A stretch of DNA of 61,419 bases from Lentimicrobiaceae bacterium (GTDB lineage: Bacteria; Bacteroidota; Bacteroidia; Bacteroidales; F082). The DNA is taken from contig JAISHW010000073.1 of the NCBI GenBank assembly GCA_031262365.1, positions 1 through 61,419 of the forward strand. Direction: 5' to 3'. The notes under the pieces were generated by a model that saw only the letters and a program-made list of their open reading frames with translations, was not told the origin of the DNA and searched no databases. Position 1 is the stretch's first letter; the number at the start of each line of letters is the position of its first letter. The position numbers were made by a program, and so were the translations under genes. Shown in pieces: positions 2,758-8,773 of this stretch.

Positions 2758-3755
2758 TAGATGTTTTCTATTTGATTGAGTAATTCTTCTATTGTTTGTG
2801 CTTGGTATTTTTTTTCGAAATATGTAAAACAAAAAAATCCGTTTTCCGATGTGATTTCCAATGTTTTACCATCAGGTTTCACGACTTCATATCCTTTTCG
2901 TATCAAGGCTCTTTCGACCCATTGAAGACATAAATCAGCCGGTTCAATGGCTATTTGACATTTTTTTTGTTTCGGAATAGTAAACTGAGCTGTTTTCAAA
3001 TCGAATATCAAATCGTTGCACGACAAATAATTATCGATTAATCCGCTGATTGCCAAATCTTCAGAAATACCCGAAACTAAAGGTTTGTTTCGTGCAACCA
3101 ACCACAATTTGTCGGCTGTACGCATCAGAATATCCAAATCGTGCGAACTGAAAAGGATTGTTTTGTGCTGTTCGCGCGCCAATTTTACCAACAATAAAGT
3201 GAGTTCGATTTTGCTCGGATAATCGAGAAAAGCTGCCGGCTCGTCTAAAACAATCAACGGTGTATTTTGAGCTAAGGCTTTTGAAATCATTACTTTTTGA
3301 CGTTCGCCATCGCTTAAGCTATTGAAAGTTCGATCAATAAGATTTTCTGTTCCTGTGAGTTTTAAACTTTGTTCGATAATTTCGTAATCCGATTTTTTCA
3401 ATTTTGCCCACAATCCCACATAAGGATAACGTCCGGAAGCCACTACATCAAATACTTTAAGAAACACATCGTCAGGACGTTCAGTGAGTACAATGCTGAA
3501 TAAAGACGCTTTTTTTGTTGCCGAATAATGCCGGATGTTTTTATCGAAAAGCAATACTTCTCCTGACAAAGGTTTTGTGCTATCTGTCAGCGTTTTAAAT
3601 AAAGTTGTTTTTCCTGAACCATTCGCTCCCGCCAGCGCAACGATATCGCCTTCGAAAAGGGTTATGTTAATGGGAGGAAACAAGGCTATATCCGGCTTTC
3701 CCGAAACACGATAGCCTATCGACAGGTTTTTCGTTTCCAACACTTTTCTTTTCAT
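2757..3755 (-). CDS. ABC transporter ATP-binding protein (FecE/BtuD type)
   Basis: 332 residues. Walker A GANGSGKTTL near residues 42-51, signature LSDGERQKVMISKAL near 146-160, Walker B LIVLDEPAAFLDYP near 167-180, and switch histidine in SSHDLDIL. This is the cytoplasmic motor of a type II importer for iron-siderophore, haem or cobalamin-like ligands. The protein has ~80 extra C-terminal residues after the usual ABC domain (from ~250), a short alpha/beta segment with no recognised match. It overlaps the permease gene by 4 bp (ATGA) and the amidohydrolase by 1 bp, so translation is coupled. Ligand cannot be told from sequence; no cobalamin riboswitch was seen upstream. Confidence 0.93.
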   Translation of the reverse strand: MKRKVLETKNLSIGYRVSGKPDIALFPPINITLFEGDIVALAGANGSGKTTLFKTLTDSTKPLSGEVLLFDKNIRHYSATKKASLFSIVLTERPDDVFLKVFDVVASGRYPYVGLWAKLKKSDYEIIEQSLKLTGTENLIDRTFNSLSDGERQKVMISKALAQNTPLIVLDEPAAFLDYPSKIELTLLLVKLAREQHKTILFSSHDLDILMRTADKLWLVARNKPLVSGISEDLAISGLIDNYLSCNDLIFDLKTAQFTIPKQKKCQIAIEPADLCLQWVERALIRKGYEVVKPDGKTLEITSENGFFCFTYFEKKYQAQTIEELLNQIENI

Positions 3756-4792
3756 TGTTGAAATATTCGTTGACGTTTCAAAATAATCCAGATAACGAAA
3801 GGTGCTCCAATCAGCGAAGTTACGCTGTTGATGGGCAAATTGCCTTCAAATCCGGGCAGTCGCGCAATTAAATTACAGAAAAGAGCAAGCAACATTCCCA
3901 ATATGATACAAGCCGGAATCAGTATTTTATGGTCGCTCGTTTTGAATAAAAAACGTGCCATGTGCGGTACCGATAAGCCAATAAAAGCAATCGGTCCTGC
4001 ATAAGCCGTAATTAAGGCTGTTAGATAACCGGCTATCAGAATGATAAACAGACTGCTTCGGTGAATATTCAAACCCAGATTTTCGGCGTAACAATCGCCT
4101 AACAGAATCATATTGAGCGATTTTGACAAAAAAAGCGAAAACAACAATCCAATTAAAATGGCTATCATAAAAAACGGTAATTGCGATTGCGAAACATTTG
4201 AGAATGAACCCATTCCCCAAATTACAAACGAATGTAATTCTTCTTTTCCGCTTAAAAATTTTAACAAATCGGTAATCGAGCTTGTTATAAAAGCAATCAT
4301 GATGCCTATCAAAAGCAGGCTTACTATATTTTTTAAACGTAAACTTAGCGACAAAATCAGCAGCAAAACCAGTAAAGCACCAATAAATGCCGCTACTGAA
4401 ATTCCTAACGAAGTCCACCAATTTTGCAATAAAAGTGTTCCCGAACCAAAAAGCAATATCACGCTTGCAACACCTAAACTAGCCCCACTGCTGATTCCTA
4501 AAATCGAAGGATCTGCCAATGGATTGCGAAATAAGGTCTGCATCAACAAACCGGCAACAGCCAAGCCGGCTCCCGAAAACAGTGCAACCAAAGCTTGTGG
4601 CAAACGGTAATTCAACAAAATCGTTACGATTCCTTTATCCATACGGCTCGCATCACCAAAAAAAACGTGTGCCATATCACGAATAGAAATAGGTACCGAT
4701 CCAATCAAAATGTTCAATACAAAAAGAAATAAAACACTGATTAGCAAACAGATAAGCGCGCTCCATTTCATTTTATTTCGTTTTTCAAGCAT
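3752..4792 (-). CDS. FecCD/BtuC-family ABC permease
   Basis: 346 residues with about ten hydrophobic segments, the normal size for FecCD permeases. Family landmarks are clear: LPQALVALFSGAGLAVAGLL near residues 64-83, then TLFRNPLADPSILGISSGAS, and a C-terminal GPIAFIGLSVPHMARFL, the loop that meets the ATPase. It transports a metal chelate across the inner membrane. The ATG at 4792 overlaps the binding-protein stop by one base (TAATG). Partners are the ATPase immediately downstream and the lipoprotein immediately upstream. Confidence 0.95.
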   Translation of the reverse strand: MLEKRNKMKWSALICLLISVLFLFVLNILIGSVPISIRDMAHVFFGDASRMDKGIVTILLNYRLPQALVALFSGAGLAVAGLLMQTLFRNPLADPSILGISSGASLGVASVILLFGSGTLLLQNWWTSLGISVAAFIGALLVLLLILSLSLRLKNIVSLLLIGIMIAFITSSITDLLKFLSGKEELHSFVIWGMGSFSNVSQSQLPFFMIAILIGLLFSLFLSKSLNMILLGDCYAENLGLNIHRSSLFIILIAGYLTALITAYAGPIAFIGLSVPHMARFLFKTSDHKILIPACIILGMLLALFCNLIARLPGFEGNLPINSVTSLIGAPFVIWIILKRQRIFQQ

Positions 4793-5930: not shown

Positions 5931-6302
5931 TCATTCTAATTCTTCACGTTTGAGAAGTAAAATCGAGTTATGGGGCACGATGAAATATTTTTCGGAACAG
6001 TACATGATTTCAATAGCACTTTTCTGAAGAAAAATCGCTAAGTCGCCCACCTTTGCCTGCAAAGGAATATACTTTAGCTGTTCGTGCGTTTGTTGTTTCC
6101 AAGGTTCGATATCGTCATCATTCAAATTCGGAATCGGAATTCCGGGTCCTACTTTAACAATATAACCACTATGAACCGTTTCTTTTTCGTTGTATCCGGG
6201 AGGTAAAAACAAGCCTGTACGTGTTTTTTCGGGAAACGTTTCGGGCTTTACAAGTACTCTATCGCCTACAACAAGCAGTTTATCAAGTTTAAAAGAACTC
6301 AT
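5931..6302 (-). CDS. GroES/Cpn10-like co-chaperonin family protein
   Basis: 123 residues. VVGDRVLVKPETFPEKTRTGLFLPPG near residues 11-36 matches the Cpn10 N-terminal strand and the region of the mobile loop, and HSGYIVKVGPG follows as in GroES. The C-terminal part AIEIMYCSEKYFIVPHNSILLLKREE corresponds to the closing strand. The protein is longer than GroES (about 97 residues) because of an insert around residues 60-85 (NLNDDDIEPWKQQTHEQ). No groEL lies nearby, so this is a paralogue rather than the main groES. It heads the BtuFCD-like operon and has its own TAnnTTTG promoter. What it folds or binds is unknown. Confidence 0.85.
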   Translation of the reverse strand: MSSFKLDKLLVVGDRVLVKPETFPEKTRTGLFLPPGYNEKETVHSGYIVKVGPGIPIPNLNDDDIEPWKQQTHEQLKYIPLQAKVGDLAIFLQKSAIEIMYCSEKYFIVPHNSILLLKREELE

Positions 6303-6369: not shown

Positions 6370-6468
6370 ATCTACAATAGTAGAAATTTTAAGCGTTGCT
6401 TAGACAGGATAAGCCATCAACAATTTAAAAATCTCTACAATAGTAGTTTATCAAGTTTTAAAACACAT
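6370..6468 (-). CRISPR. Orphan type V-A (Cas12a)-like repeat with one degenerate partner
   Basis: On the minus strand 6405-6370 is a 36-nt block beginning GTCTAAG and ending AATTTCTACTATTGTAGAT. That ending is the canonical Cas12a crRNA handle (stem TCTAC, loop TATT, stem GTAGA), and the length and GTCTAAG start match full-length Cas12a repeats such as that of Francisella. The 5' half also contains a small TAAGC-AAC-GCTTA stem. Exactly 63 nt upstream (6468-6433) the stem CTACTATTGTAGA recurs, which would leave a 27-nt spacer (6406-6432). The 5' half of that second copy is however explained by a duplication of the GroES-like gene start, so it is weak support. No cas gene is in the window. Confidence 0.6.
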
Positions 6469-6530: not shown

Positions 6531-6559
6531 GGCAAAACACGATAAGGTAAATTTTTGGC

Positions 6560-6567
6560 TACTTTTG
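6560..6567 (+). promoter_or_regulatory. -7 promoter box of the mutL cluster
   Basis: TACTTTTG on the plus strand, exact TAnnTTTG match, 44 nt before the ATG at 6612. It would drive the small membrane protein, mutL and the genes after it. Confidence 0.6.
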
Positions 6568-6611: not shown

Positions 6612-6920
6612 ATGAGATTTTCATTGTTCTATACGAAAGCTCCCCGAAAGTTTAATCACAAGCCCTTGTATTACAGTCCTGAACGTGAAGAACGCGAAAA
6701 ACAGCGAACAAAAATGGGACTTAATCCGGAACTTTCGGACGAAGACGAGCTCCGCATCAAATTAGCTTCGCGATGGCGCAAAGAAGAAAAACAGGTGTTT
6801 GAAGACCGTTTCAGACGGGTAAAAATCATTGTTTTTGGGATTGTCGTTGTTGTAACGGTTTATGTCGTATTTTTTACGGATGTACTTGAAAATATCATTA
6901 AAGGGCTGAGTGCTCATTAG
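6612..6920 (+). CDS. Small conserved-type membrane protein upstream of mutL
   Basis: 102 residues. The first ~75 are strongly charged (many R, K and E; YYSPEREEREKQRTK), followed by one membrane helix (IIVFGIVVVVTVYVVFF, about residues 77-93) and a short tail, so the charged part should face the cytoplasm. I recognise this as the kind of small protein often placed before mutL in Bacteroidales, but no function is known to me. It lies 8 nt before mutL and probably shares its transcript. Confidence 0.8.
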   Translation: MRFSLFYTKAPRKFNHKPLYYSPEREEREKQRTKMGLNPELSDEDELRIKLASRWRKEEKQVFEDRFRRVKIIVFGIVVVVTVYVVFFTDVLENIIKGLSAH

Positions 6921-6928
6921 TTGTTGCA

Positions 6929-8773
6929 ATGATGGATAATAATGATATCATCAAATTGCTTCCCGATGCTGTGGCAAACCAAATTGCTGCCGGCGAAGTC
7001 ATTCAAAGACCTGCTTCTGTCGTTAAGGAACTACTCGAAAATGCACTTGATGCCGGCGCAACACAAATAGACCTTTTTGTCAAGGAAGCCGGAAAAACAG
7101 CTATTATGGTGATTGACAATGGAATTGGTATGTCGGAAACCGATGCACGACTGAGTTTCGAACGACACGCAACATCGAAAATCCATAGAGCCGACGATTT
7201 ATTTGCTATTCGCACAATGGGATTTCGTGGCGAAGCACTTGCCAGCATCGCCGCTATTGCACAGGTTGAATTAAAAACACGCCGCAAAACAGATGAATTA
7301 GGCACAAAAATACTGATAGAAGGTTCTGTTGTTAAATCGCAAGAAATGCAACCAATGCCCGAAGGAACCACTTTTACTATCAAAAATTTGTTTTTCAATG
7401 TTCCTGCGCGGCGCAATTTTCTCAAATCAAATCAAGCCGAAATGCGTCATATCATTGATGAATTTCATCGTGTCGTATTGATGCATCCCGAAATTGGTTT
7501 TTCGTTTTCGAGCAACGAAAAAGAGCTGTTTCATCTTTATCCGGGTACACTGAAACAGCGTATTGTAGCACTTTTCGGTAACAATTACAACGAGCGTTTG
7601 CTTCCGGTTGAGCAAGCCACATCAAGTGTTTCGGTAAACGGTTTTGTCGGAAAACCTGCTTTTGCCCGAAAAACACGTGGCGAACAATATTTCTTTGTCA
7701 ACCGCCGCTTCATCAAACATGCTTATTTGCATCATGCTGTTGAAAATGCGTTTCAAGAACTGCTTCCAAAAGACAGTTTTCCGAGTTATTTCATTAACAT
7801 CGAAATTAATCCGACAGAAATAGACATCAATATTCACCCAACGAAAACAGAAATTAATTTTCAAGATTCCAAACTTGTTTACGCAATTATTCATGCGGCT
7901 GTAAAAAAAACAATCGGACAGCATAATCTCTCGCCTTTAATCGATTTCGATGTCGATCCGAAATTAAACATCGATTTTAGTGAAATCAGTAGAGCAAACC
8001 GTCAGGTAGTACATCCGACCGTAAGTTTCGATCCGGAGTTTAATCCATTTGAAAAGACTAAAACACAGTCTTTTAATCATCATGAGAAACAAAAAAACAT
8101 CGAAGGTTGGCGCAATCTGTATGGCGAACGTATTGATACACATTCTTCGGTCGAATTTGAAAATACGGAAACGCAACAAACACCCTTTTCTTTTGAAGAA
8201 GTTACAAAACGTTTTATACAAGTACAACGTTCGTATATCATAACAAGCATCAAATCGGGTTTAATGGTTATCAATCAACATTTGGCTCACTGGCGTATCT
8301 TGTATGAAGATTTTCTGAAACGGCTCGAAAATACCAAACAAGCATCGCAACAAGAACTTTTTCCGCAGCAAATTCGTCTCAATGCAACAGAAGCTTCGTT
8401 GCTCCGCGAACTAATTCCCGATTTAAAAACCTTGGGTTTTGGCATTGAAGAGATCAATCAAACAACATTTGTTATTAACGGAACTCCAGTCAATTCAAAC
8501 GAAAAAGACGTTACGCAAACACTTGAAAAAGCATTGGAAAATTACAAAAGAAATCAGCATGATTTACATCTCGAAAAACGGCTGAATTTAGCCCGTTCGA
8601 TGGCTTTGCAATTGGCAATTCGTAACGATCACGACCTTCAAGAAGTCGAAATGACACGTTTGGTCGACAAACTTTTTGCTTGCAATGTTCCCGATGTGGC
8701 ACCAAATGGACAAAAAATATTTTTTATCTTAAAAACAAACGAAATAGAATCACGATTTAACGAAACGAAATGA
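6929..8773 (+). CDS. mutL: DNA mismatch repair protein MutL
   Basis: 614 residues. The N-terminal GHKL ATPase is complete: IAAGEVIQRPASVVKELLEN, then DNGIGM, and TMGFRGEALASIA with the GFRGEAL motif. A linker of ~90 residues is followed by the dimerisation domain from ~430. In the C-terminal domain the place of the nuclease motif DQHA-x2-E-x4-E reads NQHLAHWRILYE (residues 449-460), so the first Asp and the key Glu are absent; the C-terminal PNGQKI also differs from the HGRP zinc motif. This suggests a MutL without metal-dependent nicking. Its stop overlaps the next gene by 4 bp. Confidence 0.96.
   Translation: MMDNNDIIKLLPDAVANQIAAGEVIQRPASVVKELLENALDAGATQIDLFVKEAGKTAIMVIDNGIGMSETDARLSFERHATSKIHRADDLFAIRTMGFRGEALASIAAIAQVELKTRRKTDELGTKILIEGSVVKSQEMQPMPEGTTFTIKNLFFNVPARRNFLKSNQAEMRHIIDEFHRVVLMHPEIGFSFSSNEKELFHLYPGTLKQRIVALFGNNYNERLLPVEQATSSVSVNGFVGKPAFARKTRGEQYFFVNRRFIKHAYLHHAVENAFQELLPKDSFPSYFINIEINPTEIDINIHPTKTEINFQDSKLVYAIIHAAVKKTIGQHNLSPLIDFDVDPKLNIDFSEISRANRQVVHPTVSFDPEFNPFEKTKTQSFNHHEKQKNIEGWRNLYGERIDTHSSVEFENTETQQTPFSFEEVTKRFIQVQRSYIITSIKSGLMVINQHLAHWRILYEDFLKRLENTKQASQQELFPQQIRLNATEASLLRELIPDLKTLGFGIEEINQTTFVINGTPVNSNEKDVTQTLEKALENYKRNQHDLHLEKRLNLARSMALQLAIRNDHDLQEVEMTRLVDKLFACNVPDVAPNGQKIFFILKTNEIESRFNETK

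Follow-up and report, generated by a model that had tools for sequence, protein, structure and literature searches.

A type V-A CRISPR repeat, a truncated second repeat and a spacer-like stretch at a duplication junction upstream of a GroES-like gene: a probable array fragment

The locus described here lies in a window of 61,419 nucleotides, by which we mean the whole stretch of DNA analysed. The window is contig C92 of a 2.23-Mb, 92%-complete assembly of a Lentimicrobiaceae bacterium in 119 contigs, and this genome was searched by pattern, by family, and by stretches around matches. A GroES-like (chaperonin-like) gene and a gene for a small protein without Pfam family diverge from a shared gap of 309 bp, and in the promoter of the former sits a 77-bp module that consists of a 13-nt repeat end, a 27-nt spacer and a whole 36-nt repeat (table 1); the base next to the truncated repeat, at position 6433, is G where the full repeat has T. 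The neighbouring genes are GroES-like, mutL, rhomboid-like and uvrB-like, and the neighbourhood examined showed no mobile element.

Table 1. Coordinates of the features in and around the divergent intergenic region.
Feature	Position	Strand	Remark
GroES-like gene	5931..6302	minus	Pfam Cpn10, 123 aa
D copy	6371-6274	minus	the promoter that has survived, plus the opening codons of the GroES-like gene
-7 box of the GroES-like gene, TACTTTTG	6347-6340	minus	Bacteroidetes-type; 22 nt downstream of the repeat
Complete type V-A (Cas12a-type) repeat, GTCTAAGCAACGCTTAAAATTTCTACTATTGTAGAT	6405-6370	minus	36 nt
Spacer-like stretch, ATTTTTAAATTGTTGATGGCTTATCCT	6406..6432	minus	27 nt
Truncated repeat, CTACTATTGTAGA	6446-6434	minus	13 nt
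U copy	6552-6442	minus	decayed duplicate, on the upstream side, of the promoter and opening codons of the GroES-like gene
-7 box of the divergent small gene, TACTTTTG	6560..6567	plus
Divergent small protein gene	6612..6920	plus	102 aa, without Pfam family
mutL	6929-8773		after the 102-aa gene

The complete repeat has the properties of a type V-A repeat: a length of 36 nt, a GTCTAA-type start and, at its 3' end, a Cas12a handle, which folds into the Cas12a crRNA stem-loop with a 5-bp stem in a secondary-structure prediction without pseudoknot. An earlier note on this DNA had reported such a minus-strand element, opening with GTCTAAG and closing with the handle, and the description is confirmed: the pattern GTCTAAG-N10-handle is found once in the window with 0.00 occurrences expected, and the 19-nt handle likewise once, even allowing three mismatches, with 0.01 expected. 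On these expectations a chance origin of the full repeat was rejected; the observation is real. The shorter stem CTACTATTGTAGA occurs at no more than one mismatch in only two places in the whole window; when the 309-nt intergenic region was dinucleotide-shuffled 20,000 times, no shuffle contained it. Its second copy sits 63 nt upstream of the first, measured handle to handle, leaving the 27-nt spacer. The recurrence and spacing had been noticed before and both stand, except that the second copy is a truncated repeat; set against the usual definition of an array, with at least two repeats and a regular spacer, the module offers one full repeat, one truncated to 13 nt and a single spacer of 27 nt.

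The genome possesses a type V-A locus of its own on another contig, C104. The exact handle occurs 52 times in the genome; one of these copies is in the window and the other 51 are on C104, where an array of about 52 repeats, the last of them decayed, alternates the repeat GTCTAACAGACAAACTAAATTTCTACTATTGTAGAT (49 of 51 copies, the other two with one change each) with spacers of 26–33 nt. Adjoining this array are cas4 and cas1, whose best PADLOC models are PREFRAN (V-A), and Cas12a and Cas12a3 loci of relatives share this handle, which bears out the proposed V-A identity; the term 'solitary' applies to the handle within the window, given the roughly 52 further repeats on C104. The module agrees with the resident array in its period, which falls within the range of 62–69 nt found there, and in its spacer length, 27 nt being that of 6 of the 50 resident spacers. 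The repeats themselves are identical at 28 of 36 positions. They have GTCTAA and the last 20 nt in common, and all eight differences lie between these two blocks, so that the window repeat does not derive from the present form of the C104 array. The 21-nt core of the window repeat had no match in the genome contigs searched, nor did a 27-nt piece of it match viral contigs; the nearest other match to the handle in this genome, on contig C48, has two mismatches and lacks GTCTAA. The cas2 frame on C104 (L012, about 3587–3864, minus strand) is broken by one in-frame stop at codon 12, and spacer acquisition may consequently be impaired. We also observed that one spacer of the array occurs twice and that a RhuM-family gene lies at the end of the contig.

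Even at three mismatches the 27-nt spacer has no second copy in the genome, viral contigs contain no exact match of 20 nt to it, and phages and plasmids no covering match; the search for its target suggested by the earlier note therefore came back empty. Its similarity to the flanking DNA is not significant (shuffle fractions of 0.20 and 0.48), and for this reason the spacer is not simply local DNA; copying from the flanks was rejected on the same grounds.

Searches of the 92%-complete assembly for Cas12a, Cas12a3 and related effectors gave no match, although the models used do give matches in relatives. TIGR04330 (Cas12a) has matches in G102, G141, G164 and G173, and PDLC01235 in G237, G330, G402 and others. 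PDLC01232 has them in G103 and G110, where the effector resembles Cas12a3 (phmmer E 0 to PDB 21we and 9hlx). None of the three has a match in this genome, and a direct search with a Cas12a3 protein gave none either. The earlier statement that the window contains no cas gene thus holds for Cas12a-group effectors, the sole group searched, and does so for the whole assembly; of the cas12a gene and larger array that the note proposed to look for, a related array was located and cas12a was not. Since the cas locus of C104 stops at the contig edge, the effector may simply be unassembled. A separate observation concerns two relatives of different species, G110 (L072 8995–14533) and G103 (L073 5325–10753), in which the Cas12a3-type effector is followed directly by a gene of 640–670 aa that sits between it and cas4. 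Its product has a DUF3800-like start, 'ILAIDETG', and a TPR-like C-terminus; the word DUF3800 is absent from the main text of the Cas12a3 paper (PMC12851939), and the protein is possibly an unreported Cas12a3 partner.

The DNA on the two sides of the module is related. In the U and D copies 83 of 92 aligned bases match, with 11 gap runs, and their local alignment score of 94 compares with a maximum of 66 in 500 shuffles. They belong to a decayed tandem duplication of about 170–180 bp that spans the divergent promoter and the start of the GroES-like gene, and the module lies between them, at the duplication junction. The -7 box has been lost from the U copy and kept in the D copy, where it is the only full TAnnTTTG on the minus strand of the intergenic region; this is the box that had been noticed just downstream of the repeat, and it belongs to the GroES-like gene. 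No leader or full TAnnTTTG precedes the module on the minus strand, and promoters of other types are possible there. The end of the repeat overlaps the expected -33 region of the surviving GroES-gene promoter. The gap of 309 bp compares with 65–251 bp in eight syntenic relatives (69, 65 and 251 bp in three, 123–167 bp in five), none of which has the handle at this locus, the best match having at least five mismatches. Judging by the gap sizes and the missing handle, module and duplication look specific to this lineage in comparison with these eight relatives from outside the genus. Among the findings by which the earlier note would have its reading refuted were the lack of cas12a or a related repeat in the genome or its relatives and the absence of the motif from relatives at this locus; a related array is present, yet the motif is indeed absent there.

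How could a piece of a CRISPR array come to lie in the promoter of a chaperonin-like gene? We consider it probable, with some reserve, that the feature is a V-A array fragment captured in a rearrangement, a relic devoid of present CRISPR function and probably silent. Going beyond the anatomy, we infer that a 77-bp array piece would have been captured during repair at the junction of the local tandem duplication, which copied the GroES-gene promoter and first codons, capture and duplication presumably being one event. The donor would have been a V-A array with a repeat slightly different from that of C104, one that has been lost or is missing from the assembly. Of the two promoter copies the upstream one has decayed, and the downstream one would drive the GroES-like gene. 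The repeat would then precede the transcription start and is unlikely to be transcribed, because no promoter box is found upstream of it and the surviving promoter is downstream. Among the three options raised by the earlier note, the relic is the best supported, by the junction site, the missing recognisable promoter, the unmatched spacer and the differing 5' half of the repeat. Counting against it, no second array with the GTCTAAGCAACGCTTAA repeat of the window, which could have served as donor, was found in the genome. The handle and the GTCTAA end are unchanged relative to the C104 consensus, though the duplication has diverged by about 10%; were module and duplication of the same age, 26 nt free of constraint would have a probability of about 0.07 of staying unchanged at about 10% substitutions, a weak, suggestive hint of constraint or of a later arrival of the module. 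Off-target integration by Cas1-Cas2 with target-site duplication was rejected: the duplication measures about 170 bp, not 36, and the two 36-mers that end in a stem agree only over about their last 13 nt.

The functional readings deserve to be weighed against the captured fragment. A working orphan mini-array, its minus-strand transcript trimmed by a host V-A effector encoded outside the assembled genome and with immunity or silencing directed by its 27-nt guide and/or by what follows the full repeat, is favoured by the intact, folding handle, by the resident V-A locus with its array of about 52 repeats and by a layout that matches the viral mini-arrays of PMC8616872. It has to contend with an assembly in which effector models that score in relatives find nothing, with the lack of a full -7 box upstream of the repeat, with a spacer for which the searches gave no target and with an interrupted cas2 at the resident locus; we consider it unlikely, and the earlier suggestion of a mini-array served by a distant Cas12a shares its standing. 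The module might instead be a regulatory element of the GroES-like gene, at the DNA or RNA level, in which the stems form a hairpin or an upstream promoter element and the CRISPR origin is incidental. The overlap with the -33 region would suit this, as would the folding of a 100-nt stretch, with a z of -4.0, into a longer hairpin and better than in stem-keeping shuffles (fraction 0.007). Mutual pairing of two self-complementary stems, however, occurs in every array, relatives lack the element and the predicted transcript starts downstream of it, which makes this reading quite unlikely. The more specific proposal of a crRNA-like regulator of the adjacent promoter gained no positive support: the only full -7 box is downstream of the repeat, and the GroES-gene transcript would therefore not contain it. 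The inverted-copy alignment of the two stems beats 2,000 of 2,000 shuffles, and given this and the folding results the truncated stem could be of other origin, which counts against the captured fragment; together with the 26 unchanged bases, the better-than-shuffle folding leaves room for function. We hold it distinctly improbable that the module is a V-A mini-array, diverged in its repeat, that the chromosome has retained at a housekeeping promoter to supply guides to the resident Cas12a-type effector or to act as a decoy for it; the papers found describe no such role for chromosomal solitary V-A repeats.

Viral genomes supply a further candidate. Three V-A RNA anti-CRISPRs (RacrVA1-3) have been shown to inhibit Cas12a immunity (PMC10651486), and the exact handle of the window occurs in 55 viral contigs (L108–L162), nearly always once per contig; these viral solitary handles could be V-A RNA anti-CRISPRs. 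These observations favour a domesticated Racr, in which RNA from a solitary repeat of mobile-element origin would occupy the host effector. Of 44 distinct viral sites, however, nine are preceded by TAnnTTTG at no more than 22 nt (1.2% at random positions), and only two keep the GTCTAA end, whereas the window site keeps this end, retains a remnant of a second repeat and has no promoter directly before the handle. It lies, moreover, between housekeeping genes with no mobile element in the neighbourhood examined, and we regard this origin as very unlikely. Least credible of all is chance resemblance, in which promoter-like palindromes (CTACNNNNGTAG) would mimic a repeat and the second stem would be a decayed copy of GroES codons 9–13. 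The divergent promoter does contain CTACTTTTGTAG at 6559, and the U copy extends into the second stem. Against this stand 26 fixed bases at exact spacing with 0.00 expected, the identity of the last 20 nt with the genome's own array repeat and the absence of the stem from all 20,000 shuffles. A continuation of the U copy past the stem as decayed GroES codons was unsupported (shuffle fraction 0.915).

In comparison with type V-A arrays (Cas12a/Cas12a3, PREFRAN Cas1-Cas4), the module has the same 36-nt repeat length, GTCTAA start and AATTTCTACTATTGTAGAT handle, the same 27-nt spacer length and the same handle stem-loop; it differs in having only one whole and one truncated repeat, no leader and no cas genes nearby, and from the resident array in the 5' half of its repeat. 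Viral and proviral mini-arrays, in which a truncated and a complete repeat enclose a single spacer (PMC8616872), share its layout and its separation from cas genes, but the module occupies a housekeeping chromosomal locus at a duplication junction, its repeat is not identical to that of the host array and no promoter is seen; its spacer, which in a viral mini-array would be expected to match related viruses, has no match in the viral contigs, phages and plasmids searched. With the solitary repeat units, or Racrs (PMC10651486), it has in common an isolated V-A handle away from cas genes; these are encoded in viruses, plasmids or proviruses, whereas the module has housekeeping neighbours and no similar phage or plasmid DNA, lies outside a mobile element without an adjacent promoter and keeps a whole repeat plus the remnant of a second. 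The class of orphan mini-arrays and solitary repeats is already known, and the module adds one case to it.

If the capture explanation is true, ordinary DNA rearrangement can move CRISPR array pieces into unrelated chromosomal loci, and genome scans can mistake such scraps for RNA anti-CRISPRs or guide-RNA regulators. A sorting rule suggests itself: array scraps would retain the 5' repeat end and lack a promoter box, whereas most viral solitary repeats drop the 5' end and some have a promoter box immediately before them.

Isolated or variable repeats were also encountered in relatives. In G161 (L019/L075) a solitary full-length V-A repeat, GTCTAATAGACTGTTTT plus handle, is flanked by genes for a SulP-type transporter and a HigA-like protein, and neither another repeat copy nor an effector was found in that genome. 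Like the window repeat it is a single full-length element running from GTCTAA to the handle; it differs in its 5' half and its locus and has no second stem. The 98%-complete genome of G227 has a single exact handle as its sole copy (L094 1501–1519), without the GTCTAA end. In G164 (contig C27, L020/L076) a V-A array stands beside a full-length Cas12a; many of its repeats differ in their 5' halves, in a mixture of GTCTAAGAGAC, GTCTATGAGGC and GGTGTTAGACC types, but have a nearly constant handle, and the array is apparently a patchwork of several array lineages.
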